This document shows, in pieces, positions 6,326-59,535 of a stretch of DNA of 64,000 nucleotides. The stretch is taken from positions 26,238,672-26,302,671 of the forward strand of contig NC_089277.1 of the NCBI RefSeq assembly GCF_963678975.1. The letters are read 5' to 3'. The notes under the pieces are model-generated. The model worked only from the letters and a program-made list of their open reading frames with translations. It made no database searches and was not told the DNA's origin. The stretch comes from Dysidea avara (lineage: Eukaryota; Porifera; Demospongiae; Dictyoceratida; Dysideidae). Made by a program: the position numbers and the translations under genes. Numbering within the stretch: position 1 is the stretch's first letter; the number at the start of each line of letters is the position of its first letter.

Positions 6326-6627
6326 CTGGATGATGAGAGCAAGAAAATAACGTTAAAATAATACACTTGCTTTGAAAGCTAAAAAAACTACCCCAACAGC
6401 CTATGATTGCAGAGACAGGCCATATTGAAGGATTAAGGAATACACACTCACTCACTGAGAAAATTGTGATCAGTTGTGCATGTGCTTATATGACCAACGT
6501 TTATTGATATTGTATAAATCTACTGTGTGCTGTTACATGTCATCCAGACATTAATAAATTACAATGTGTTTTGAGAAGCTGTATTACTTAGGTAGCCAAT
6601 GCCAGTCATGCAGCCCTATGACGTGGT

Positions 6628-37674: not shown

Positions 37675-37946
37675 AAAGGCTAACTTGAGATACCCTAATA
37701 CAGCAGTCACCATAATAGAACAGTCACACATGTATAGTAACAAAAAAAACCAAACGAACTAGTATATTAATTTGAAAATGAAGTAGGGATCCAAGCAATA
37801 AACAGCAATAGATGAATGATGGTATTATGACATAGCTTGGTGGGATGAACAAAATAATTGTTATAACGTGCCAATGCAGGGATTATCCCACTGAGCTATG
37901 CTGTAATACCACCATTCATCTCTTTTTTCACTGTTTTTTAAACCAG
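37675..37946 (-). mobile_element. Second copy of the 2.1-kb-region palindrome element
   Basis: From CTAGTATATT at 37,759 the sequence follows the palindrome at 2111-2386 (GAAGTAGGGATCCAAGC, AATAATTGTTATAAC, GAGCTATGCTGTAATA). The adjoining segment to the left carries, in reverse, the ATTATGGTGACTGCTGTATT-type motif that flanks the first copy. The right arm is truncated at about 37,946. Confidence 0.7.
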
Positions 37947-39133: not shown

Positions 39134-40429
39134 GTTAGTGTGTAATAATTTGTTTTGATTGCTATTGCTCATAAATTGTTTTGTAGTTTCATGCCCTGGC
39201 ATGTACGTACTATGATCATACAATGTATAAAATTGCAGCTCCTATATTCTTACATGTTGTGAATAATTTGTTAAAGTCAATGCTGGAATATTGGCAATAT
39301 CAGAAGCCCATAAGTGCCGTTTGTGCCTTGTGGCATGTATGGGCTACGTATATGCTTAGAACAATAGACTGAGGGTGGGTTTGACTTGCATACGTATGTA
39401 ATACATTGTGAGCCATTCATAGCATTATGAGCAAGGCAACCTAACTACTTCACTCATTACAAGTCTTCATTTTAAACTGTGTACTATTCTAATAGTTAAA
39501 GAATTGCCTATGTCCAAACATGACATGCATTCAAAATGAGGTCTTGGAATACTAGGCTCCACCTCATACTACTAATTATTGTACTCACTCTTTACTGCAC
39601 TATTTTTAACATATTTCAAGACACACGGTATGTCGTACAGCCCAAGAAGCCGGCGCGCAACACCCATGATCATATTGACAGGAAGAAAGAAAATACAATT
39701 TTCGCACCTCCGTAGCTCTGTGCTGCCTTGATGAAACAAGACGATTTTTGCTGTGGACACATCTGCCAAGTACTCTACCTACCACATTTCAGTGATTTCG
39801 CTTCAAGCATTCCCAAGATACGTATGTGACTTCAAAAATTGGCTTAGTTCCTTCATTTTTTTCTTCTTATTTTTCTTCCTCTTTTCGCCCACTTACAAAA
39901 ACTGCAATAAAATGTGAACACCATATCCGATTGCCTTGACATTTGGCACACAGAAGGGGGTATAAAGGTGCGTCTTGATACCAACTGTGGCTGGAATACG
40001 ATAAACAGGCAAAGAGTTATTAGCAATTATTTACAAAAAAAATAACACCAATATGTTGTCACACCTACAGGGAAAAACCGCTTACAGGAAGAAGCTGAAA
40101 ATCAGTGGGTGAATAGGTTAACTATTGAACCTCAAACCTTTTGTGGTTTGAAAGAAATCGAGGTAAAAACGATGAAGATACAACGAAAAAACCAACAGTA
40201 TGTAACAATTATGCAATCGAGATTAGCTAATAATAAACGATTACTTGTTACGCCTACCAGAAAAACCACTTGGAGTAATGCTTTGAAAATCGTTGTACAG
40301 ATGGAGTAATCATCAGACGTAAAGCCACAGAGTTATAACACGAAATCCAACTTGGTGTAGCAATGTGCGAGATCGAGTTACTCTAATAGAGCAGTCATCC
40401 TAATAGAGCAGTCAACTGAGGAGAATTCA

Positions 40430-41220
40430 AGAGATCAGCTAGAAACAAGTAACCCATATAGAGATTAGCTACAAACAAATCACTCTGTAGAGAGTTCAGC
40501 TACAAACAATTCACCCTGTAGAGAGTTCAGCTAGAAGAAGCTTGTAGAGAGTTCAGCTACAATGAAACCATCATGTAGAGAATTCAGCTGCAAACAAATC
40601 ACCCTGTGGAGAGTTCAGCTGTGAAAAGATCAACATGTAGAGAGTTCAGCTAGAAGAAGTCACCTTGTAGAGAGTTCAGCTACAAAGAAACTACCGTGTA
40701 GAGAGTTCAGCTGCAAACAAATTACTCTGTAGAGAATTTAGCTACAAACAAATTGCCCTGTAGAAAGATCAGCTAGAAGAAGTTACCTTGTAGAGAATTC
40801 AGCTACAAACAATTCACCCTGTAGAGACATCAGCTAGAAGAAGTCACCTTGTAGAGAGTTCAGCTACAAAGAAACCACCATGTAGAGAGTTCAGCTGCAA
40901 ACAAATAGCCCTGTAGAGAGTTCAGCTAGAAACAAGTCATCCTGTAGAGAGATCAGCTAAAAGGATCACTTTGCTACAAACAAATCACCCTGCAGATAGT
41001 TCAGCTAGAAACAAGTCATCTTGTAGAGAGATCAGCTAGAAGGATCACCCTGTGGAGATTTCAGCTACGAACAAGTCACCCTTTAGAGAGATAAGCCAGA
41101 CAAAGTAACCCTGTAGAGAGAATCCTGTAGAGAGTTCATCTACAAGCAAATCACCCTGTAGACACTTCAGTTACATTTCAAGTCACCCAGTAGAGAGATC
41201 AGCTGCAAACAAGTTATCCA
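40430..41220. repeat. 31-bp minisatellite, about 25 units
   Basis: Units of the form GTAGAGAGTTCAGCTACAAA followed by CAAATCACCCT, with variants (AGAAGAAGTCACCTT, AAGAAACCACCAT). There are no unique spacers between units. Confidence 0.95.
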
Positions 41221-41400
41221 TAAGGAATAATTGATATGTAATAAATATATGTATTTTATATTGTACATTTACTGATAAAATCAAAAATAGCTAAAGTATT
41301 TATAATCTGCTTCATCTTTTTCTTCTTCCTGTGGTAAAGAAAAAAAGAAAGCCCCAAAGCTGGCCATATGCTGGCTTTGGGGTATACAAATACAAAAAGA

Positions 41401-41725
41401 AGTGAAATCTAATCCAAAACAGCCAAGCTGTAAAAAAAGAGTGCGGCCCTCAAAAAGGCTATGGTGAAAAAAGATGTGAAATCCAAGGTGGTGGCCAAGA
41501 AATAGCTGTGATGGTAGGTTAATGGTAAAAATTTTAATAATGACAATTCAGGTGAATTTGGTGCCGCTTGGTCTTGGCTAAAAATTCACCTGAATTGTCA
41601 TTATTAAAATTTTACTACCATCACAGCCATTTCTTGGCCGCCACCTTGGATTTCACATCTTTTTTCACCATAGCCTTTTTGAGGGTTGCACTCTTTTTTT
41701 ACAGCTTGGCTGTTTTGGATTAGAT
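41401..41725. repeat. Long palindrome in right module, copy 1
   Basis: The arms start ATCTAATCCAAAACAGCC and end GGCTGTTTTGGATTAGAT. They run through matching stretches such as GGATTTCACATCTTTTTTCA down to the inner pair around AATTCACCTGAATTGTCATT. It would form a hairpin of about 150 bp. Just outside, CCCCAAAGCTGGCC and GCTGGCTTTGGGG make a second, smaller hairpin. Confidence 0.85.
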
Positions 41726-41822
41726 AGCATTAACTTTGTTTCTTAAGAATTGTATTCACATAGACTGTATGTACGTACATATGTGTAAGTGATGTGTGCA
41801 TCATTTATCAGAGGTATACAAC

Positions 41823-42216
41823 TAGTGCTGGGCGGTATTGAAAAATAACAAACGGTATACCTTCCATAAAAAGTATCATGGTATTACTAAATATCATGGT
41901 ATTAATGTAAAATAAAGCAACTGCTATTTACCTCAACAAAAGCACCAAATACCCATGGTAGCTCAGCAAACTTCAGGTACAAATTACCTCAAACAAACTT
42001 GTTTACATAGTTTGGTTAGCTGACTACATCAGCACCTGCCTACAAACTTTGTCACATGTCTGGTTACCTTCTAAATATGGGATGAAACAAGCCCACAGGA
42101 AGGCCATAGTGCCCAGACGGTATGGCAGTATTTTAAAAAAAAAACAGGCAGTATCAAAGCCGGTATGACTTAAATATCACAGATTATTAACAATACCAGT
42201 ATATTTCCCAGCTCTA
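41823..42216. mobile_element. hAT-like short element with 8-bp TSD
   Basis: The ends are TAGTGCTGGGCGGTAT and ATATTTCCCAGCTCTA. TATACAAC is duplicated exactly at 41,815-41,822 and 42,217-42,224. The interior repeats GGTATTA words and has no ORF. The 8-bp duplication and (T)AGxGCTGGG ends fit hAT. It lies in the intron between the composite copies. Confidence 0.85.
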
Positions 42217-42394
42217 TATACAACTGTTTTATCACTGATGCATGTAAATTATGCGATTGAATTTTAGAAAATCACCCATATGGGTGCGCATGAATGTTTA
42301 GTGGGTTGGTAATAAGAGCAGGACATAGTTTTAAAAATATTTGAAGAATTTTCTTGTAATTGAGATTGGCTTACAACCATTAACAAGTAGATTT

Positions 42395-42614
42395 GTGCCT
42401 GTGAAAATAGGGCATGTGGGCACAAGCTACACCTTGCCACATAACAGGTCATATCTCAATACTGGAACATAATGTTTGCATTCTATAACTTGTGCTAAAT
42501 AGCCAATTAAATTTCTAATAAGGGTGGAACATTTACATGGCTATGACATGATACCATAAAAAGGTATGAATCATGGCAAATTTTATATGCCCACATGCCC
42601 TATTTTTGCAGGCC
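42395..42614. mobile_element. Short inverted-repeat element (GGGCATGTGGGCA ends)
   Basis: GCCTGTGAAAATAGGGCATG near the left answers CATGCCCTATTTTTGCAGGC at the right; stems of about 25 bp. The interior (TTCTATAACTTGTG, GCCAATTAAATTTCTAATAA) is shared with a block at about 55,890-55,950. No clear target duplication. Confidence 0.6.
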
Positions 42615-42643
42615 CAATCACATATTGTGTATATACACAATAT

Positions 42644-42981
42644 CACTGTGAAAAAAGAGGGATATAAGATGGTATTTCCAGTGGCTTATTGAATACAAAA
42701 AAGCTTGATATAACCTGTATTATACTAACGATCTCATGTAAGGCTTTAGTTAATGTGTTAAACAAACTGAAACCATATATGTGATAGTATAATGTGGGAA
42801 TTATATTCAATATAAGCTGTTTCAGGTAATGTAGTAAATAAACTGAAACCATATATGTTAATAGTATAGTATGCATTATACTAAAGTATAACATGAGTAT
42901 AATACAGGGTTTATATTAAGGCTTATTTGTATTCAATAAGCCACTGGAAATACCATCTTATATCCCACCTTTTTCACAGTG
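42644..42981. mobile_element. CACTGTG-ended MITE with 3-bp TSD
   Basis: The ends CACTGTGAAAAAAGAGGGA and TCCCACCTTTTTCACAGTG belong to an inverted repeat of about 56 bp. TAT flanks both sides (42,641-42,643, 42,982-42,984). An internal ~75-bp duplication contains AACTGAAACCATATATGT twice. CACTG ends with a 3-bp duplication fit the CACTA/Chapaev group. Confidence 0.8.
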
Positions 42982-43172
42982 TATGTGATATGTGATAGGG
43001 TATTTAATTTACATTTAGTGCATCAAAGCTAGTATATTCAACCAATTCGGAGTCAAAGCAGACCCACTATCTCATGTACATCTACAAAATGAATATAAGA
43101 TTGCCATGAAATGTAGGTGAAAGGCTGAAAGCTATACTAATTGTTACGCACTCTCTTATTAATAACACTTAG

Positions 43173-43267
43173 ATTATCTCCGTGTTGCCTCAAAAGTGAC
43201 TACTCCAATAGATGAGATATTTGGTGGAGTTAAACTGAACACTGTGATATGTCGTGAATGTAGATCT
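43173..43267 (+). CDS. USP exon: IDEIFGG and first CxxC
   Basis: The exon reads YLRVASKVTTPIDEIFGG then VKLNTVICRECRS. The FGG-x-L-x-x-x-x-x-C-x-x-C pattern is the zinc-binding start of the USP fingers region. The acceptor TTAG is at 43,169-43,172 and the donor TCT/GTAAGT at 43,268. It starts with one carried base and ends in phase 0, which matches the exon at 51,865. The 8.6-kb intron behind it holds composite copy 2 and a foldback. Confidence 0.88.
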
Positions 43268-44249
43268 GTAAGTTAGTACAGAAATGAAAGCATTGTGTAC
43301 ATTAGTATATTATACCATAACACAGTGTATTAATAAACCAAGTAATAGTAATATTATCCCTTCACCACTGAATTTAGACTACAGTATCAAGACACACGGT
43401 AGTGTGTCGTGCGGCCCAAGAAGCCGGCGCGCCACACCCGTGAGTATATTGACAGGAAGAACGAAAACGTCATTTTCACACCTTTGTATCTCAGTGATTA
43501 CGTATCCGATTGGAACCAAATTTGCTACACAGTTGCCCGCCAGCCAAGGGAGTCTACATTCCAAATTTGAAGGAAATCGCTCCAGCCATTTCCGAGATAC
43601 GAGCTGCCAAAGTTTCGTTTTTTTTTCTTCGTTTTTTTTTTCTTCGTCTTTTCGCACACTTGCAAAAATTGCTATAACAAGCAAACGCGTACTCCGATCG
43701 CCTTGAAATTTGGCACACAGAAAGGGAGTCCAACGGCGAATCCTAGCATCAAATTTGGTACAAATCCGATGAATGGTTCAGGAGTTATGACCGATTATTC
43801 GCGTAAAACAAGATCGATTTGTTGTCACGCCTACAGGGTAAACCGCTTCATGGAATGAGTTGAAAATTGCTATGTAGATGGAGTAACCATCGTAGGAGTG
43901 CCTTTTGGTGGTTTGAAAGGAATCGAGATAAAGACCACGGAGATATGACACAAAACCCAACCTGTGTCACAATTACGCGATCGATTTTTATGAATAAAAA
44001 AGTATTAGTTTTCACGCCTACTAGGCAAACCGCTTAGAACAATAAAGCTGAAAATCGGTGTATAGCTGGAATAATCTTCATAGAAAGTCCTTGCAGTAGT
44101 ACAGAAGAATCGGATTACAAACCACTGAGTTATGATTCGAAAGCCAACTCCGTGTAGCAAATGTGAGATCGAGATACTCTAATAGAGCAGTCACCCTAAT
44201 AGAGCATTCGGCTAATTTATTCATTCCATTATAGAATTTTATTACATCA

Positions 44250-47200
44250 CAAGTTATTCTGTAGGGAGTTCAGCTGCAAACAGTTAATCTTATAGACAGT
44301 TCAGCAAGAAGACAGTCACCATGTGGAGAGTTAAGTAAATATATCACTATAGAGATTCAGAACATTACAAGTCACACTGAAGAAAGTTCAGCTATAAACA
44401 AGTCATGCACTGTGTAGAGAATTCAGCTACAATTAAGTCACTCTCTAGAGAATTCAGTTACACAGAATTCAGCTACACACAAGTCACTGTGGAGAGAGTT
44501 CAGTTACAAACAAATTACCCTTTAGAGTGATCAGCTACAAACAAAACACTTTGCAGGGTGATCAGCTGCAACAAATCAACCTTTAGAGCGATCAGCAATG
44601 AACAAATCAACACAAATCTACCTGTAGAGAGATAAGCTAGAAACAAATCACCCTGTAGAGAGTTCAGCTACAAAAAATCACCCTGTAGAGACATCAGCTA
44701 GAAACTAGACACAATGTAAGGAGTTCAGATACAAGCAATCACCCTATAGAGAGTTCAGCTAAAACAAATCAACCTGCAGAGAGATCAGCTACAAACAAAT
44801 CACCTTATAGAGAGTTCAGCTACAAACAGATTACCTGTAGAGAGATTGGCTACAAACAAATCAACCTGCAGAGAGATCAGCTACACACAAATCAACTTGT
44901 AGAGAGATCAGCTACAAACAAATCACCCTGTAGGGATATCAGCTAGAAACTACACACAATGTAAGGAGTTCAGCTACAAACAAATCACCCTGTACAGAGT
45001 TCAGCTAAAACAAATCAACCTGCAGAGAGATCAGCTACAAATAAATCATCTTATAGACAGTTCAGCTACAAACAAATTACCTTGTAGAGAGATCGGCTAC
45101 AAACAAATCAACCTGCGGAGAGATCAGCTACACACAATTTAACTTGTAGAGAGACCAGCTACAAACAAATCACCCTGTAGAGAGATCAGCTAGATACTAG
45201 ACACAATGTAAGGAGTTCAGCTACAAGCAAATCACCCTGTAGAGAGTTCAGCTACAAACAAACCAACCTGTAGAGCGATCAGCTAGAAACAAAGAAGAGA
45301 GGTCAGCTACAAAAAATCACCCTGTAGAGATATCAGCTAGAAACAAATCACCCTGAAGAGAGGTCAGCTACAAAAAATCACCTTGTAGAAAAATCAACTA
45401 CAAACAAAACACTTTGTAGAGAGTTCAGCTACAAACAAATCAACCTTTAGAGCGATCAGCAACAAACAATCAACCTGTAGAGAGATAAGCTAGAAACAAA
45501 TCACTCTGTAGAGAGTTCAGCTAAAACAAATCAATCTGCAGACAGATCAGCTACGTACAAATCACCTTATAGATAGTTCAGCTACAAACAGATTACCTTG
45601 TAGAGAGATCAGCTACAAACAAATCACCCTGCAGAGAGAACAGCTACACACATATCAACTTGTATAGAGATCAGCTACAAACAAATCACCCTGTAGAGAG
45701 ATCAGCTACAAACTAGACACAAAGTAAGGAGTTCAGCTACAAGCAAATTACCCTGTAGAGAGTTCATCTACAAACAAATCAACCTGTAGAGCAATCAGCT
45801 AGAAACAAATCACCCTGAAGAGAGGTCAGCTACAAAAAATCACCCCGTAGAGAGATCAGCTAGGAACAAATCACCCTGTAGAGAGGTCAGCTACAAAAAA
45901 ATCACCCTGTAGAGAGATCAGCTACAAACAAATTGCCCTGTAGAGAGATCGGCTACAAACAAATCAACCTGCAGAGAGATCAGCTACACACAAATCAACT
46001 TGTAGAGAGATCAGCTACAAACAAATCACCCTGTAGAGAGATCAGCTAGAAACTACACACAATGTAAGGAGTTCAGCTACAAATAAATCACCCTGTAGAG
46101 AGTTCAGCTAAAACAAATCAACCTGCAGAGAGATCAGCTACAAACAAATCACCTTTTAGACAGTTCAGTTACAAACAAATTACCTTGTAGAGAGATCGGC
46201 TACAAACAAATCAACCTGCAGAGAGATCAGCTACACACAATTCAACTTGTAGAGAGATCAGCTACAAACAAATCACCCTGTAGAGAGATCAACTAGAAAC
46301 TAGACTCAATGTAAGGAGTTCAACTACAAGCAAATCATCACCGTGTAGAGAGTTCGGCTACAAACAAATCAACCTTTAGAGCGATCAGCAACAAACAAAT
46401 CAACCTGTAGAGAGATCATCTAGAAACAAATCAGAGTTCAGCTAAAACAAATCAATCTGCAGAGAGATTAGCTACATACAAATCACCTTATAGATAGTTC
46501 AGCTACAAACAAATTACCTTGCAGAGAGATCAGCTACACACAAATCAACTTGTATAGAGATCAGCTACAAACAAATCACCCTGTAGAGAGATCAGCTAGA
46601 AACTACACACAATGTAAGGAGTTCAGCTACAAACAAATCACCCTGTAGAGAGATCAGCTACAAACTAGACACAAAGTAAGGAGTTCAGCTACAAGCAAGT
46701 TACCCTGTAGAGAGTTCATCTACAAGCAAATCAACCTGCAGAGCAATCAGCTAGAAACAAATCACCCTGAAGAGAGGTTAGCTACAAAAAATCACCCTGT
46801 AGAGAGATCAGCTAGAAACAAATCACCCTGTAGAGAGTTCAGCTACAAGCAAAACACCCTGTAGAGAGTTCAGCAACAAAGAAACGACCATGTAGAGAGT
46901 TCAGTTGCAAACAAATCACCTTATGTGACCCGGTCTGCGAAAAGGGCTCTTATAGACTTTCCAATTATCCATGTTTGGCTAATCATAACTCCTAATCTAC
47001 TAAAGCTATCACCATGTAATTACACCCACAGCTACTGCCAGGTTAGGGTTGTTGAGTGACCAAATTGTAGGCTTGTACCATATTCACCAGTCAAGTTATG
47101 GGTTACCATATATATGCAATTGGAAAGGCTATAAGAGCCCTTTTCGCAGACCGGGTCACTTATAGAGAGTTCAGCTACAAACAAATCACCCTGTAGAGAG

Positions 47201-48830
47201 ATCAGCTAGAAACTAGACACAATGTAAGGAGTTCAGCTACAAGCCAATCACCCTTTAGTGAGTTCAGCTACAAACAAATCAACCTGCAGTGAGATCACCT
47301 ACAAAAAAGCACCTTGTACAGAGTTCAGCTATAAACAAATTACCCTGTAGAGAGATCGGCTACAAACACATCAACCTGTAGAAAGATCAGCTACACACAA
47401 ATCAACTTGTAGAGAGATCAGCTACAAACAAATCACCCTGTAGAGAGATCAGCTAGAAACTAGACACAATGTAAGGAGTTCAGCTACAAGTAAATCACCC
47501 TGTAGAGAGTTCAGCTAAAACAAATCAACCTGCAGAGAGATCAGCTACAAATAAATCACTTTATAGACAGTTCAGCTACAAACAAATCACCCTGTAGAGA
47601 GATCAGCTAGAAACTAGATACAATGCAAGGAGTTCAGCTACAAGCAAAATCACCCTTTAGTGAGTTCAGCTACAAACAAATCAACCTGCAGTGAGATCAC
47701 CCACAAAAACGCACTTGTACAGAGTTCAGTTGCAAACAAATTACCCTGTAGAGAGATCAGGTAGAAGATTCTCACCTTGTAGAGAGTTCAGCAACAAAGA
47801 AACCACCATGTAGAGAGTTCAGCTGCAAACAAATCACCCAGTAGAAAGATCAGCTAGAAGAAGTTACCTTGTAGAGAGTTCAGTTACAAAGAAACCATCA
47901 TATAGAGAGTTCAGCTACAAAGAAATTACCCCGTAGAGAGTTCAGCTAGAAGAAGTCACCTTGTAAAGAGTTCAGCTACAAAGAAACCATCATGTACAGA
48001 GTTCAGCTACAAAGAAACCACCTATACAGAATTCAACTACAAACAAATCACCCTGTATAGAGATCAGCTAGAAGAAGTTACCTTGTAGATAGTTCAGCTA
48101 CAACAATCCACCCTGTAGAAAGATCAGCTAGAAGAAGTCACCTTGTAGAGTGTTCAGTTACAAAGAAACCATGATGTAGAGAGTTCAGCTGCAAACAAAT
48201 CACTCTGTAGAGAGTTCAGCTACAAAGAAACCGCCATGTAGAGAGTTCAGCCTCATACAAACCACCATGTAGAGAATTCAACTACAACAAATCACCCTGT
48301 AGAGAAGAAGTTACCTTGTAGAGAGTTCAGCTACAAAGAAACCATCACGTAGGGAGTTCAGCTACAAAGAAACCACCATGTAGAGAGTTTAGCTGCAAAC
48401 AAATCACCTGTAGAGAGTTCAGCTAGAAACAAATCACCCCGTAGAGAGATCAGCTGGACGAAGTCACCTTGTAGAGAGTTCAACTACAAAGAAACCATCA
48501 TGTAGAGAGTTCAGCTGCAAACAAATCACCCTGCAGAGAGTTCAGCTACAAAAAAATCACCCTGTAGAGAGTTCAGCTAGACGAAGTCACCTTATAGAGA
48601 GTTCAGCTACAAAGAAACCATCATGTAGAGAGTTCAGCTACAAAGACACCACCATGTAGAGAGTTTAGCTGCAAACAAATCACCTGTAGAGAGTTCAGCT
48701 AGAAACAAAATACCCTGTAGAGAGACCAGCTAGAAGAGGTTACCTTGTAGAGAGTTCAGCTACAAAGAAACCATCCTGTATATAGTTCAGCTACATTTCA
48801 AGTCACCCAGTAGAGAGATCAGCTGCAAAA
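44250..48830. repeat. 31-bp minisatellite with ~247-bp higher-order repeats
   Basis: Units GTAGAGAGATCAGCTACAAA plus CAAATCACCCT and variants. The rare variant unit with AATGTAAGG recurs at 44,713, 44,958, 45,205, 45,721, 46,061, 46,308, 46,611, 47,221, 47,468. Five of the intervals are 245-247 or close to twice that, i.e. about 8 units per higher-order block. The right third (47,750-48,780) uses a different set of variants (AGAAGAAGTTACCTT, AAGAAACCATCAT), more like copy 1. Confidence 0.9.
46925..47159. mobile_element. MITE inserted in the minisatellite, 4-bp TSD
   Basis: The ends are GTGACCCGGTCTGCGAAAAG and CTTTTCGCAGACCGGGTCAC in effect (about 40-bp inverted repeat including AGGGCTCTTATAG). 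TTAT flanks both sides. Neighbouring units read AATCACCTTATAGAGAG, so the empty site is known independently of the insertion. A decayed relative lies at about 57,798-57,975 and a possible one at 60,214-60,449. Confidence 0.88.
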
Positions 48831-49440
48831 AATATCCTGTGGGGCATAATGGGCATGTAATAAATATATGTATATAATTTGTATAATTACTAATAAAATC
48901 AAAAATAATTGAAGTACTAAAATTCTTCTTTAAGTTCTTTTCTTCTTCCTGTAGTAAAGAGAAAAACACATGGGTTAAAAAAGCCCCAAAGCCAGCCATA
49001 GGCCGGCTTTGCAGTATACAAATACAAAAAGAAGTGATATCTAATCAAAAACAGCCAAACTGTAAAAAAAGGTGCGGCCCCCAAAAAGGCCATGGTGAAA
49101 AAAGATGTGAAATCCAAGGTGGCGGCCAAGAAATGGCTGTGATGGTAGGTTAATGGTTACATTTTAATAACGACAATTCAGGTGAATTTTGTGCCGCTTG
49201 GTCTTGGCACCAAATTCACCTGAATTGTTGTTATTAAAATGTAACCATTAACCTACCATCACAGCCAGTTCTTGGCCGCCACCTTGGATTTCACATCTTT
49301 TTTCACCATGGCCTTTTTGGGGGCCGCACCTTTTTTTACAGCTTGGCTGTTTTTGATTAGATTATAATTACTGTACACACTAAATCATACTATACAACAC
49401 TGTTGTACAATACTCTGCTTTTAATGTATGATACCATCTC

Positions 49441-49755
49441 AGGGGCGGATCCAGAGTCTGGAAAGAGGGGGGGGGGCACCTTGCTGAAAAAAAAAAGTTG
49501 AAGAGCAAAAAAAAAAAAAAAAAGGTCACAACAATAATAGCTAGTTATCCTTTACCAAATATATTATATCACGTATGTTATGTAAAAATAAAATCCTACC
49601 TAAGTAAGCTGCACTGCCTCATGAACATTGTGACTGCTTTATTAGAGTAATTGACTGCTCTATTAGAGTATCTCGATCTTGTATGCAATTTCTTGAAGGG
49701 GGGGGGGGGGGGGGGGGCATTTGCCCCAAATGCCCCATCCTGGATCCGCCATTGC
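49441..49755. mobile_element. Inverted-repeat element GGCGGATCCAG with G and A tracts
   Basis: GGGGCGGATCCAG at the left faces CTGGATCCGCCATTG at the right. Inside are G10, A17 and a G20-class run, an AAAGGTCACAAC phrase, and two ATTAGAGTA motif copies at 49,630-49,675. Homopolymer lengths may be assembly-sensitive. Confidence 0.6.
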
Positions 49756-49817
49756 ATCTGGAATGGTGTGATTTTATGTCAAAGTATTCATGTGCTAATT
49801 TTTCCATCAAAGTGTGC

Positions 49818-53564: not shown

Positions 53565-53786
53565 ATTGTTACATTATATTTGTAGCTTTGTACATCTTTC
53601 TTCTAGTACTTATGTGTCATAATGCACATGTTGCTTGTTAATTAGTGCTGCTTTGTACTGTACCTTGTTATTGACTTTTATTGTACTGTGATGTGCATTC
53701 AAACTTACGTGTGTGTGTACTTAACATCTGCCCTCACAATAAAACCAATACTGAAATGCTGGATTTACACAATTATTGTTTTTAAG

Positions 53787-53998
53787 GTGATGGGAAAGGT
53801 AGTGGTGGTGGTAGTGATGATGACGTAGTCCTGTGTTTGGTAGCCAAACAGATCATAATTCACAAGCTTCCAAAAGTGTTGATCCTCCACATCAAGAGAT
53901 TCAACATCGGTGATTACATGGTGAAAAAGGATTCAACTCACATAACATTTCCACCGATCCTGAATATGGCACCTTATTGCAGCAATACATGTTTGGAG
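53787..53998 (+). CDS. USP exon: LPKVLILHIKRF block
   Basis: After a TTTTTAAG acceptor the exon reads a Gly/Asp-rich stretch, then IIHKLPKVLILHIKRFNIGD and FPPILNMAPYC. LPxVLxxHxKRF leads into the palm of the USP fold. It ends GAG/GTACAG in phase 0. Confidence 0.92.
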
Positions 53999-54760
53999 GT
54001 ACAGAAACTACACAGTATGGCATGTAACACTAGTAACCATGTGCTACACACTGGGTGTTCTAGAGTCTCTGTATATTCTAGTGTATCTGTGTATTAATAT
54101 AGTACAGGCGCTATGGTGCAGAGTAAATGTAACGCAACATTTGAATATGGCTGTTAGAATACTGCTTAGCTAATACTTTCAGTACTTTCTAACCGCAAAA
54201 GATTTGCACTACAATAGTTACTTTGTGTACAAACCAATGTTCAAATTACCTTGTAGGCGTGTCAACAGATTGCTTTTACATACTTTGAAAATTGTGCATA
54301 GCTTCCTTGGTATTTATCTGGTCTGTACGAAAATATGTAGGACTGTAATTGTGCGTTATTATGTTTGTACTATCCTTCCAAATTTGAAATAAAGCATGTG
54401 CAAGTTATTGTGATTTTTCTACATTATGCAAAAGGAAATAGGATAAAATTATGCACAAATAAGAAGAAAAATATGAAGAAAATATTGAAGGTGACCATCT
54501 CTGTGATGGCAAGGTAGATTGACTCAAATTTGGAATAAGAGGTACCCTTCCTGAGGGAGTTTCCACATGAAAAGTGGTTGATTTACATTCAGGCACTATC
54601 GAGCTATGGATGAGTAAAAATGGATTGGTTCCTGTAAGATACATGCACACTTGTCTTTTGCGTGCCAGCACTGGCTATATTTGGCAACACAACACATTAT
54701 CACGTGTGTCCTTATAAGCATGTGTATTATGCATAATTAAATAGTATTTATAATTTACAG

Positions 54761-55051
54761 GAATGTTGTGATGCAAACAACAACATCTTTTATGGCTTGT
54801 ATGCGGTTGTTGAGCATAAGGGTGTTACTCTTAAAAGTGGCCACTATGTAGCTTATGTACGAAGGAGACCTCTGAGAGATCCTAAGCAGTATGATTATCA
54901 TGGAGAATATGATCAAGGAGCTGCACATGATGGAAAGTGGCTGTACACAAGTGATGAGGTTATCAGAGAATCTCAATGGGATGACGTCAAGAATTGTGAT
55001 GCCTATCTGCTGTTCTATGAACTCCTGCCTAGGAAGAAATCTTCTGTTTAG
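54761..55051 (+). CDS. USP terminal exon: His and Asp boxes
   Basis: 97 codons including the stop. YGLYAVVEHKG is followed by SGHYVAYVRRR with the catalytic His at 54,842-54,844, then GKWLYTSDEVI with the presumed third catalytic residue (Asp), then CDAYLLFYELLPRKK. The acceptor is TTTACAG at 54,754-54,760. A poly(A) signal ATTAAA follows at about 55,238. No stops or frameshifts are seen, so this gene looks intact. Confidence 0.95.
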   Translation, partial: ECCDANNNIFYGLYAVVEHKGVTLKSGHYVAYVRRRPLRDPKQYDYHGEYDQGAAHDGKWLYTSDEVIRESQWDDVKNCDAYLLFYELLPRKKSSV

Positions 55052-56990
55052 TAATAACTTGATGTTTTTTTTTGCACACATGCATGCACAGAAACAGGTT
55101 GTACACAGACCAGTATTGTTGTAGTTTAGAGAGTTAGTAGCTTTGTACGTATATTAGAATGCTGACTGTTGCTAGATTAGAGTTTTGAGCATACTGTAGG
55201 TGGTTTTTGCCATGATATATACTAAATAGAAATTATTATTAAAGTGTGCCATTAGTTTGAATAGCAAAACAAATTCATCAGAAAAAAAAATGATATACTG
55301 AATATTTGTTTATTCTTCAGGCAGGAATTTTATATGTCTGGGAAAGAAGATGTTGTAATGCTAGTGAGCCATACAGTCTGATGACATACATTAAAGTTTA
55401 TGTGGTCAGCAACCAAATGAATACCTTAACAAAGTATCTGGTAAAAATAAATTTCTACCAAGTTGTTCAAGTAAGGATTCTATTAGGGATAAGGATTCTT
55501 CCAGGAATACACAAGGGGATTTCTTGATAGTTGTCATACCTATACCAGGTGTTCAGTTTACTGTTATAGCACATTCTATCAATAAGGATTCTTCTAGGAA
55601 TGCATGCAGAAGTAATTTCATTGAAATATCTCAAGTTTTCTGCTTATGATGAAGAGAGAGCGCAAAGTATGTCTTTCTGGATTTCCAAAATCCCTTAGAC
55701 TTTGTTGCATTATGTAAAAGGCTCTATGTGTTATAATAAGTTGATACCATTAAAATATAAAATTATATGTAACAAACAGTTGCCTAGCTTCATATTGCAT
55801 TAGCAATTGTGACTAGACTTGCACATGGCCACAAAGTATACCCCATCATACAATAGGTGATTATGCCGGTATACTGGAGTAGAATATCTGCATTCTATAA
55901 GTTGTATTATAAATATTATAGCCAATTAAGTGGGTAATAAAATTTAATTGCCATAGCATAATGGTATTAATTATTATGAGCCATGCATATGAAAGCTTGA
56001 AAACATTAGGCAGTCCCAGCCACAATTTGCATAAAATAATAATGTTACTTTCCTGCTGGTTGAAACAGAATAGTATTACTGTTTGGTAGGGTTCCCCATT
56101 GTGCTGCCGGCTAAGACCATTATGCGAGAAAAAAATATACATGTTAATTACAGAAGCATCAATTCCATTGTTAAAACAAGGGAACACATGTATACAGAAG
56201 CACATTTTTTGGTGTGCCAGCCTGACCACAGTCACATGGCTAAGACCCAAATGAAGCCATGCACAACTACCATTATTCACTCAGATGCACACCACAATAA
56301 CAAACTCACCTAACTAGCTGTGATATGTGCATTTTTTGTTAACCTGCCAGCTGTGGGCAAGTGCGGTTGCCTGGTTTTCTATTGAACTGATGCAAGTGCA
56401 ACTAAAGTTGTTAATTTAAAAATTTATAATCCATACAATATATGTTATGTAGTAGGGTTCTGGTGATAAGAAGTAGTGAAACAAGATATGAATGATACAT
56501 GGTATTAAAACATGCCTGTGCTGTAGTGAAAGATTTGTAGTATTATAATGTGCATTATAATTATATTGATCATGGTGTTACAATTACTACATCAATATGC
56601 ATAATGATGTTCATATCCAGTGATCTTTTTAATAAGCTCGAAATGATTCTCAGTAGAGGCAGTACTTAATTAAAAGTAAAATATTGTAATTTGTTTTATT
56701 CTCGTGCATATTTTTTTTTGTGATAAAATTTTCATGCAAAACTATTTTCATATAATTTACATGAATGACTGCTCTATTAGAATGGTTCGATCTCATAAAA
56801 TTTTTGTGTAAGAAATTTTCATATATACAAGCTTTGCATATGAAAAAAGCAAAATCAATTATGGTACACCTTGTATCGGCAAGTAGCTACTAAGCAATCT
56901 TTTCAACGCAGTGGATTCTGAACTGAAATTTGGTTCAATAAGCCATACTGGCTATTGAACTGACAGCAAAACTCAAAAAGGGTCACTAAA
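55052..56990. other. 3' UTR and repeat-rich spacer
   Basis: After the poly(A) signal I see no gene. Around 55,890-55,950 is a block shared with the short element at 42,395. At 56,465-56,540 is a half-copy of the 2111-2386 palindrome (AGTAGTGAAACAAGATATGA). At 56,765 is one GACTGCTCTATTAGAATGG motif. Confidence 0.45.
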
Positions 56991-59120: not shown

Positions 59121-59535
59121 TAGGGACCCACCTATTATGCTCAAAATTTACCCATTATGCTATGCTGCACTGCTCAAATTTTTTACCTATTATGCTCAAA
59201 TTATGCTCAAGCTTTATGCCTCACTTCCCATATTTGCTAATAAATTTGCAGTTATAGGCACATAATAAATGGCTGAAGCACATCTTTGCTCTCCAAAACT
59301 GCAAGTGACAGAAAAGATCGATATACTCTAATAGAACAGTCAACTGCCTGGTTGTTCTATTAGAGTTATTGACTGTTCTATTACAGTATATCGATCGTTT
59401 TCTGTGATGTGTAGTTTGACCATCAAGGATTTGCAGTATGGCTGAAATATTCTTCCTATTATGCTAGCATTATGCTCAATGCTTTCAGGCACCTATTATG
59501 CTCATAATGATGCCAGCATAATCGGCGGGTCCCTA
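59121..59535. mobile_element. hAT-like short element with 8-bp TSD and internal palindrome
   Basis: The ends are TAGGGACCCACCTATTATGCT and its reverse counterpart AGCATAATCGGCGGGTCCCTA in effect. ACAGCTTG is duplicated exactly at 59,113-59,120 and 59,536-59,543. Near the centre (59,311-59,405) lies a palindrome with ACAGAAAAGATCGATATACT on one side and its mirror on the other, built on the CTCTAATAGAACAGTCA motif. ATTATGCTCA words repeat near both ends. Confidence 0.85.

Follow-up and report, generated by a model that had tools for sequence, protein, structure and literature searches.

The question raised by this locus is how two long repeats of a common plan came to lie side by side, and by what kind of transposition such units move. 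The window, a 64-kb stretch of contig C6 in the genome of the sponge Dysidea avara (551 Mb, 108 contigs), carries the two repeats in the same orientation and 1.7 kb apart: copy 1, which belongs to an older subfamily, at 39616..41724, and copy 2, which belongs to a young one, at 43387..49361. Both are probably non-autonomous Helitron-like rolling-circle transposons, mobilised by a Rep/helicase (HUH) enzyme supplied from elsewhere in the genome. The copies and all of their parts are assigned to the minus strand of the window, and this Helitron sense is inferred from a short hairpin near one end.

Each copy consists of a left module of about 0.8 kb (39616..40412 in copy 1, 43387..44209 in copy 2), which is the 3' terminal module in the Helitron sense, a same-strand minisatellite with a 31-bp unit, and a right module (about 0.5 kb) with a GC-rich stem-loop and a palindrome of about 320 bp. 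The array holds some 26 units in copy 1 (40430..41215, length divided by 31) and some 141 in copy 2 (44240..48840, with an insert of about 237 bp excluded). The stem-loop was seen in the sequence of copy 1 at 41352..41382; in copy 2 it lies at 48984..49013 and folds with z = -4.95, a value reached by 0/200 shuffles. The palindrome forms the right outer end, and thus the 5' end in the Helitron sense, measuring 317 bp in copy 1 (41408..41724, arms 96.5% identical over 150 bases) and 322 bp in copy 2 (49040..49361, arms 98% identical over 150 bases). A first-pass annotation of the window had described two such units with arrays of about 25 and 140 repeats, and both the plan and the contrast in array size are borne out.

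Read in the inferred sense, the element begins with the near-perfect palindrome of about 320 bp, continues through the stem-loop and the 31-bp minisatellite, and closes with the 3' module of about 0.8 kb ending in a hairpin and TTGA|T, so that the whole can be written A[TCTAATC...GACACAC-TACC-GTGTGTC-TTGA]T. The TCTAATC start is present in both window copies, and its complement GATTAGA closes 20/20 young right ends that were read. The terminal hairpin of copy 2 (GACACACGGTAGTGTGTC, 43391..43408) is 18 nt long with a 7-bp stem, and a 53-nt fold that includes it has z = -2.4 (3/200 shuffles as good). This hairpin had been noticed before and placed six bases from the end; it is real, but the distance is 4 nt, the TTGA of the 3' end.

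The two copies are homologous from the first base of the left module, with 623 of 833 aligned letters matching and 103 gap columns in an alignment that takes in about 40 bases of flank per side, and with 74.5% identity over the first 690 bases. For their right ends, an alignment extended to the final array units and some 45 bases of flank outside the element has 534 of 612 letters identical and 38 gap columns. Beyond both outer limits the alignment breaks down and the flanks are unrelated, as had been claimed, and a single T stands directly to the right of each copy.

Genome searches place this unit in a large family, dispersed and with fixed ends. With the left module of copy 1 as query there were 4,702 first-look candidates, and among the best 40, which were scored and which include the window copy, 39 matches begin at query base 1 and one at base 3. 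Twenty of these 40 places were fetched as stretches of about 10 kb, and the right module follows downstream in the same orientation in 19 of them, L074 being without it. Counting the window copies and extra copies in the fetched loci, 23 full elements are bounded by TCA(A/C)GA... and GATTAGAT, with differing flanks. The modules of copy 2 are nearly identical to those at many other places: 39 for the right module at 99% identity (best 40 of 2,025 candidates) and 39 for the left module at 97-98% (best 40 of 2,176). Because of these near-identical copies, the copy 2 subfamily has probably moved recently.

The number of ends in the genome is much larger. The terminal 24-mer of the 3' end, ending in TTGAT, has 5,875 exact matches and 14,851 with up to three mismatches, against 0 for the reversed control, and a 24-mer of the opposite, palindromic end has 15,468 exact matches, with 37 pairs placed as two palindrome arms among the 100 places listed. 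An unselected sample was provided by a 3.7-Mb stretch of contig C1 covered by both 24-mer listings, in which only exact 3' ends were considered. A palindrome lies within 10 kb on the expected (5') side of 24 of the 30 exact 3' ends, and within 5.3 kb for 23 of these, compared with 6/30 on the other side and a mean of 4.5 (maximum 13) for random positions in 2,000 trials. Together with the 19/20 loci that carry both modules, these results answer the call of the first-pass annotation for separate module searches, and they strongly support its proposal that the whole unit transposes with fixed ends and a variable array.

The arrays vary widely in size, the array region spanning 236-5,830 bp in the 23 elements (median 2,395, inserts included), and no array unit on the reverse strand was found in any of them. 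The edges of the array are more alike between elements (median score ratio 0.69 for the last 62 bp and 0.63 for the first 62 bp) than the interior (0.38), in a comparison that kept a few elements whose last 62 bp are not array units. Since the edge units score more alike than the interior, the edges appear to be anchored while the interior turns over.

The insertion site was read from 43 left and 43 right junctions, made up of the 23 elements, 20 young left ends and 20 young right ends. Immediately to the left of the element stands A in 41/43 cases, the others being one T (copy 1) and one G, and immediately to the right T in 43/43. Some nine AT-rich bases open the right flank, after which ACA is favoured, occurring at +7 to +13 in 20/43 junctions as against 5-7/43 at seven control offsets; the commonest target form in the Helitron sense is TGT-W7-A|T. 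A comparison with empty sites, also proposed at the outset, was made by joining the flanks of the 23 elements and comparing them with the sequence of the collected loci. Bridging matches were obtained for three of the 23 joined pairs (L058, L060 and L061), and in all three the closest match is ungapped at the A|T junction, with 94.5%, 80% and 89.8% identity, respectively. The L058 element has inserted into another copy, within its left module, and dozens of uninterrupted relatives of that copy exist in the collected loci. From these closest matches we read the insertion as one that would neither duplicate nor delete target bases, in keeping with the initial remark that neither a target duplication nor a CTRR end is visible.

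The A|T target, the lack of duplication, the TC start and the hairpin at the other end together argue for movement of the Helitron type. For this and the comparisons that follow, known elements are taken as described in three published accounts. Helitron1 elements start with TC, insert between A and T, end in CTRR and carry a hairpin 10-12 nt from the 3' end (PMC5148889), and the present family resembles them in its TC start, A/T insertion, hairpin near the 3' end and absence of target duplication; unlike them, it has a palindrome at the 5' end. In the favoured model, a Rep/helicase (HUH) enzyme encoded elsewhere in the genome would nick at the TC end, peel off one strand and stop at the hairpin end. 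The array would be carried along, and its length could change by replication slippage or recombination with the edge units staying anchored.

Candidates for the source of such an enzyme are plentiful. The Helitron_like_N profile gave 230 candidates in this genome, the best 150 of which were scored, and none in 14 control genomes (0/14); judged by eye, the matches form about six groups by score. In the best Rep/helicase match, L117, the gene codes for Rep and PIF1 helicase domains and is preceded by a separate OTU protease frame; a 31-bp array with the left module lies directly downstream of the gene. The L117 Helitron was nevertheless rejected as the partner: the match of two other copies to it ends at L117 6,465-6,466, before the array, and because the Helitron match stops there the neighbouring array is taken to be a separate truncated insertion. 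The 3' end of this Helitron is GCGCATTTTGCGC...CTAG|T at 6,430-6,455, the match of the other copies ending about 11 bases past it, and its 5' end, A|TCTATATATTAATTC, is common to a second copy. Joined together, L118 1267-2000 and L117 1-6454 make up a canonical Helitron whose domains are OTU, Rep and PIF1. Four further Helitron 3' ends also read CTAG|T, namely those of L130 (of the L117 group), of L131 and L132 (99.4% alike as far as this end) and of L133 (motif only). A further 3 kb beyond the 3' end of another L117-type copy (L129) matches neither L117 nor the window copies. When 143 of the 150 Rep places were set against the 120 top-scoring module places, a weak test, the only pairs lay 3.0 kb (L117) and 27.5 kb apart.

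Three other observations concern the surroundings of these Rep genes. L117 6456-7085 is a repeat of about 625 bp with a palindromic end and an AT tail, found at 92-97% identity in 36 of the 40 scored places. A palindrome that by eye is related to it lies just upstream of the Helitron at L118 1091-1238. Upstream of another Rep gene group, L127 1297-1730 and 1913-2370 (reverse complement of the locus) hold large inverted repeats and a tandem repeat of about 62 bp.

Several observations weigh against a mobilisation by Helitron enzymes. The family ends in TTGA where Helitron1 has CTRR, and its hairpin stands 4 nt, not 10-12 nt, from the end. The TTGA end was seen in 0/5 of the Helitron loci read (L117, L130, L131, L132 and L133, in three groups), all of which end in CTAG|T preceded by different hairpins. 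Copy 1 has only a degraded 3' hairpin, its end folding no better than shuffles (178/200), and its left flanking base is T where A is usual. The orientation could also be turned round, as the opposite reading likewise gives A[TC...GA]T, both ends starting with TC when read inward. Some of the more distant bridging matches are gapped at or near the junction: by four bases in two of four for L060, by two bases in one of two for L061, and by seven bases in one diverged match among those listed for L058. Finally, only 23 of the 63 palindromes or single arms in the 3.7-Mb sample are partners of an exact 3' end, and diverged ends, which were unlisted, explain only part of the 40/63 that are unpaired. 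Some of these may have partners with diverged ends, and they probably include right modules without this left module, as at L123, where the right module adjoins an AC microsatellite and no 31-bp array occurs in the approximately 690 bases examined. Modules lying mostly apart, or flanks common to both copies, had been named as fatal to transposition of the unit; the flanks are not shared, and as far as tested the modules are not mostly apart, although some do occur apart.

The best-surviving alternative is that the family, despite its unusual ends, derives from HINE/Helentron or Helitron2 elements and is mobilised by a Rep/helicase of the endonuclease-bearing or Helitron2 type. The Cg_HINE elements of the Pacific oyster are non-autonomous Helentrons with satellite-like arrays, in which two modules surround tandem repeats (PMC7492417), and they share with the present family this three-part build, the fixed array orientation, the absence of target duplication, the genome-wide dispersal and the lack of an assigned autonomous partner. 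The DINE-1/HINE elements of flies and mites are likewise non-autonomous and of rolling-circle type, with terminal palindromes and optional central repeats (PMC4067079), and Helitron2 has hairpins at both termini, as here (PMC5148889). The first-pass annotation knew of no element with this three-part build, a view overtaken by these oyster, mite and fly elements as the same accounts describe them; the family is a new variant of a known design. Central tandem repeats between two conserved modules are thus present as in Helentrons and HINEs. The target is A|T, however, neither TT nor T-rich, whereas DINE-1/HINE elements are flanked by Ts, with subterminal inverted repeats of 12-15 bp and different ends, and Helitron2 inserts between TTTT and T or C and has asymmetric terminal inverted repeats. 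Relative to Cg_HINE, the present element differs in its A|T target, in having no clear subterminal inverted repeats and in the palindrome of about 320 bp at the other end. Helentrons and HINEs have subterminal inverted repeats of 11-15 bp; here a single candidate, GTGCGGCCC (9-10 bp), does occur in copy 2, some 31 nt inside the 5' end and some 22 nt inside the 3' end, and copy 1 has none. The candidate is not significant, being equalled in 25/200 shuffles (174/200 for copy 1), and a 12-15-bp repeat 2-4 nt from the 5' end was looked for in the element ends and not found. We therefore regard this derivation as unlikely, and of the earlier suggestion of a Helitron or Helentron origin the Helitron kinship stands while the Helentron part is not supported. 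With neither the CTRR end and 10-12-nt spacing of canonical Helitrons nor the TT target of Helentrons and HINEs, the family is best regarded as an unplaced element, non-autonomous and Helitron-like.

Less probable still is a mover that does not belong to the known Rep/helicase group, such as a single-strand HUH enzyme or a tyrosine recombinase, which would make this a new kind of element. Consistent with such an origin are the failure of the five Helitron loci read to yield an autonomous partner, the missing CTRR, the huge terminal palindrome, and a target preference that reaches about ten bases to one side. On the other hand, the A|T target, TC start, terminal hairpin and absence of target duplication jointly fit Helitrons, and the genome holds many Rep/helicase genes. 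A cut-and-paste foldback element, or one of the type of miniature inverted-repeat transposable elements (MITEs), with a short target duplication, could account for the terminal palindrome, the absence of any coding sequence seen, and the few distant bridging matches with gaps of 2-7 bases; it is very improbable in view of the closest bridging matches of the three elements, which are free of duplication, and of the ends, which, compared as inverted repeats, have no more than 8-9 of 30 letters in common. A segmental duplication inside the window, to which the 1.7-kb spacing and common orientation might have pointed, is refuted by the unrelated flanks, the thousands of end copies with differing flanks in the copies read, and the membership of the two copies in different subfamilies.

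Between subfamilies, in the elements compared, identity is 73-78% for the left module (first 690 bases), 83-90% for the inner right module and 89-94% for the palindrome, which by this highest identity is the best-kept part. The corresponding medians within the older subfamily (18 elements) are 96.4, 95.4 and 96.5%, and copy 1 is 88.8-90.6% identical over its first 690 bases to six other compared members. The uneven identity of the modules between subfamilies might reflect stronger constraint or older module exchange. Chimeric subfamilies were considered, as the final array units of copies 1 and 2 resemble each other, and rejected, as the module identities show no swap. The arms of the palindrome are on average 97.1% alike within an element, and the same arms are 95.7 and 96.2% alike between elements (21/23 elements, two being without the seed motif). 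The inner arm also starts with A|TCTAATC in both window copies.

More tentatively, and with doubt outweighing confidence, the family could represent an undescribed rolling-circle lineage with a long 5' palindrome, a TTGA stop signal, target reading of about ten bases upstream (TGT-W7-A|T) and a built-in minisatellite that it amplifies itself and spreads. If so, a start of about 160 bp would be present twice, head to head, each beginning A|TC, and could fold as a hairpin or work bidirectionally. Among the papers listed by searches of an open-licence library, no title or displayed abstract describes this family or a Helitron that has a long palindrome at its 5' end. Both the conservation of the 5' palindrome and the one-sidedness of the target preference are in any case unusual features that any Helitron-like mechanism must explain. 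With thousands of copies, some almost identical, the family was probably active in the recent past. Across a 551-Mb animal genome it distributes minisatellite arrays that differ greatly in length (236-5,830 bp in 23 copies), so that how mobile elements seed satellite DNA becomes testable within one genome.

Diverged right modules, with stem-loop and palindrome and about 77-83% identity in the matching stretches, were noted at L062 4690-4975, L073 3480-3800 and L123 688-1090, next to other ends or neighbours, which suggests that older related families may share this 5' design. Left ends also occur head to head, 12-16 bp apart, at C4:25617621-25617711 (L080) and at L073 6488-7771, and insertion next to an existing end is possibly preferred. 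At L068 292-316 (reverse complement of the locus) the terminal hairpin has its loop in inverted form, reading TACC and not GGTA in the window sense, as if flipped.

Collections outside the genome were also searched. There was no match in Rfam. Three of three exact-pattern scans of a viral contig collection gave 0 loci, which says little as the collection is viral, and a 36-base scan of a prokaryotic genome contig collection gave 0 loci, which says little for an animal element. A 17-base scan of prokaryotic records gave 48 loci with one match each, by estimate about the chance level.

The two copies had also been placed within one gene, which could not be confirmed. The sole gene evidence near them, from eight reading frames scanned, is a pair of ubiquitin carboxyl-terminal hydrolase (UCH) exons on the plus strand at 53786-54094 and 54737-55048, and this pair (53786-55048) follows both copies; a motif scan for the start of the UCH domain gave no convincing match within the window. 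Together with these exons, retrotransposon reading frames recognised by eye mark the genome as one of animal type.

The insert in the copy 2 array, seen in the sequence at 46925..47161 with no strand assigned, is a separate MITE-like element of about 237 bp with terminal inverted repeats of about 31 bp (GTGACCCGGTCTGCGAAAAGGGCTCTTATAG). By eye, similar ends adjoin or sit within the copies at L067, L070 and L088. The last 30-50 bp or so of the left module, made up of ACTCTAATAGAGCAGTC repeats, recur alone in the window at 2430-2471, 37687-37726, 49631-49679, 56765-56794 and 59315-59396, and one such solitary ACTCTAATAGAGCAGTC stretch falls inside a repeat that starts with CAGGGGCGGATCCAG (about 49440-49760).

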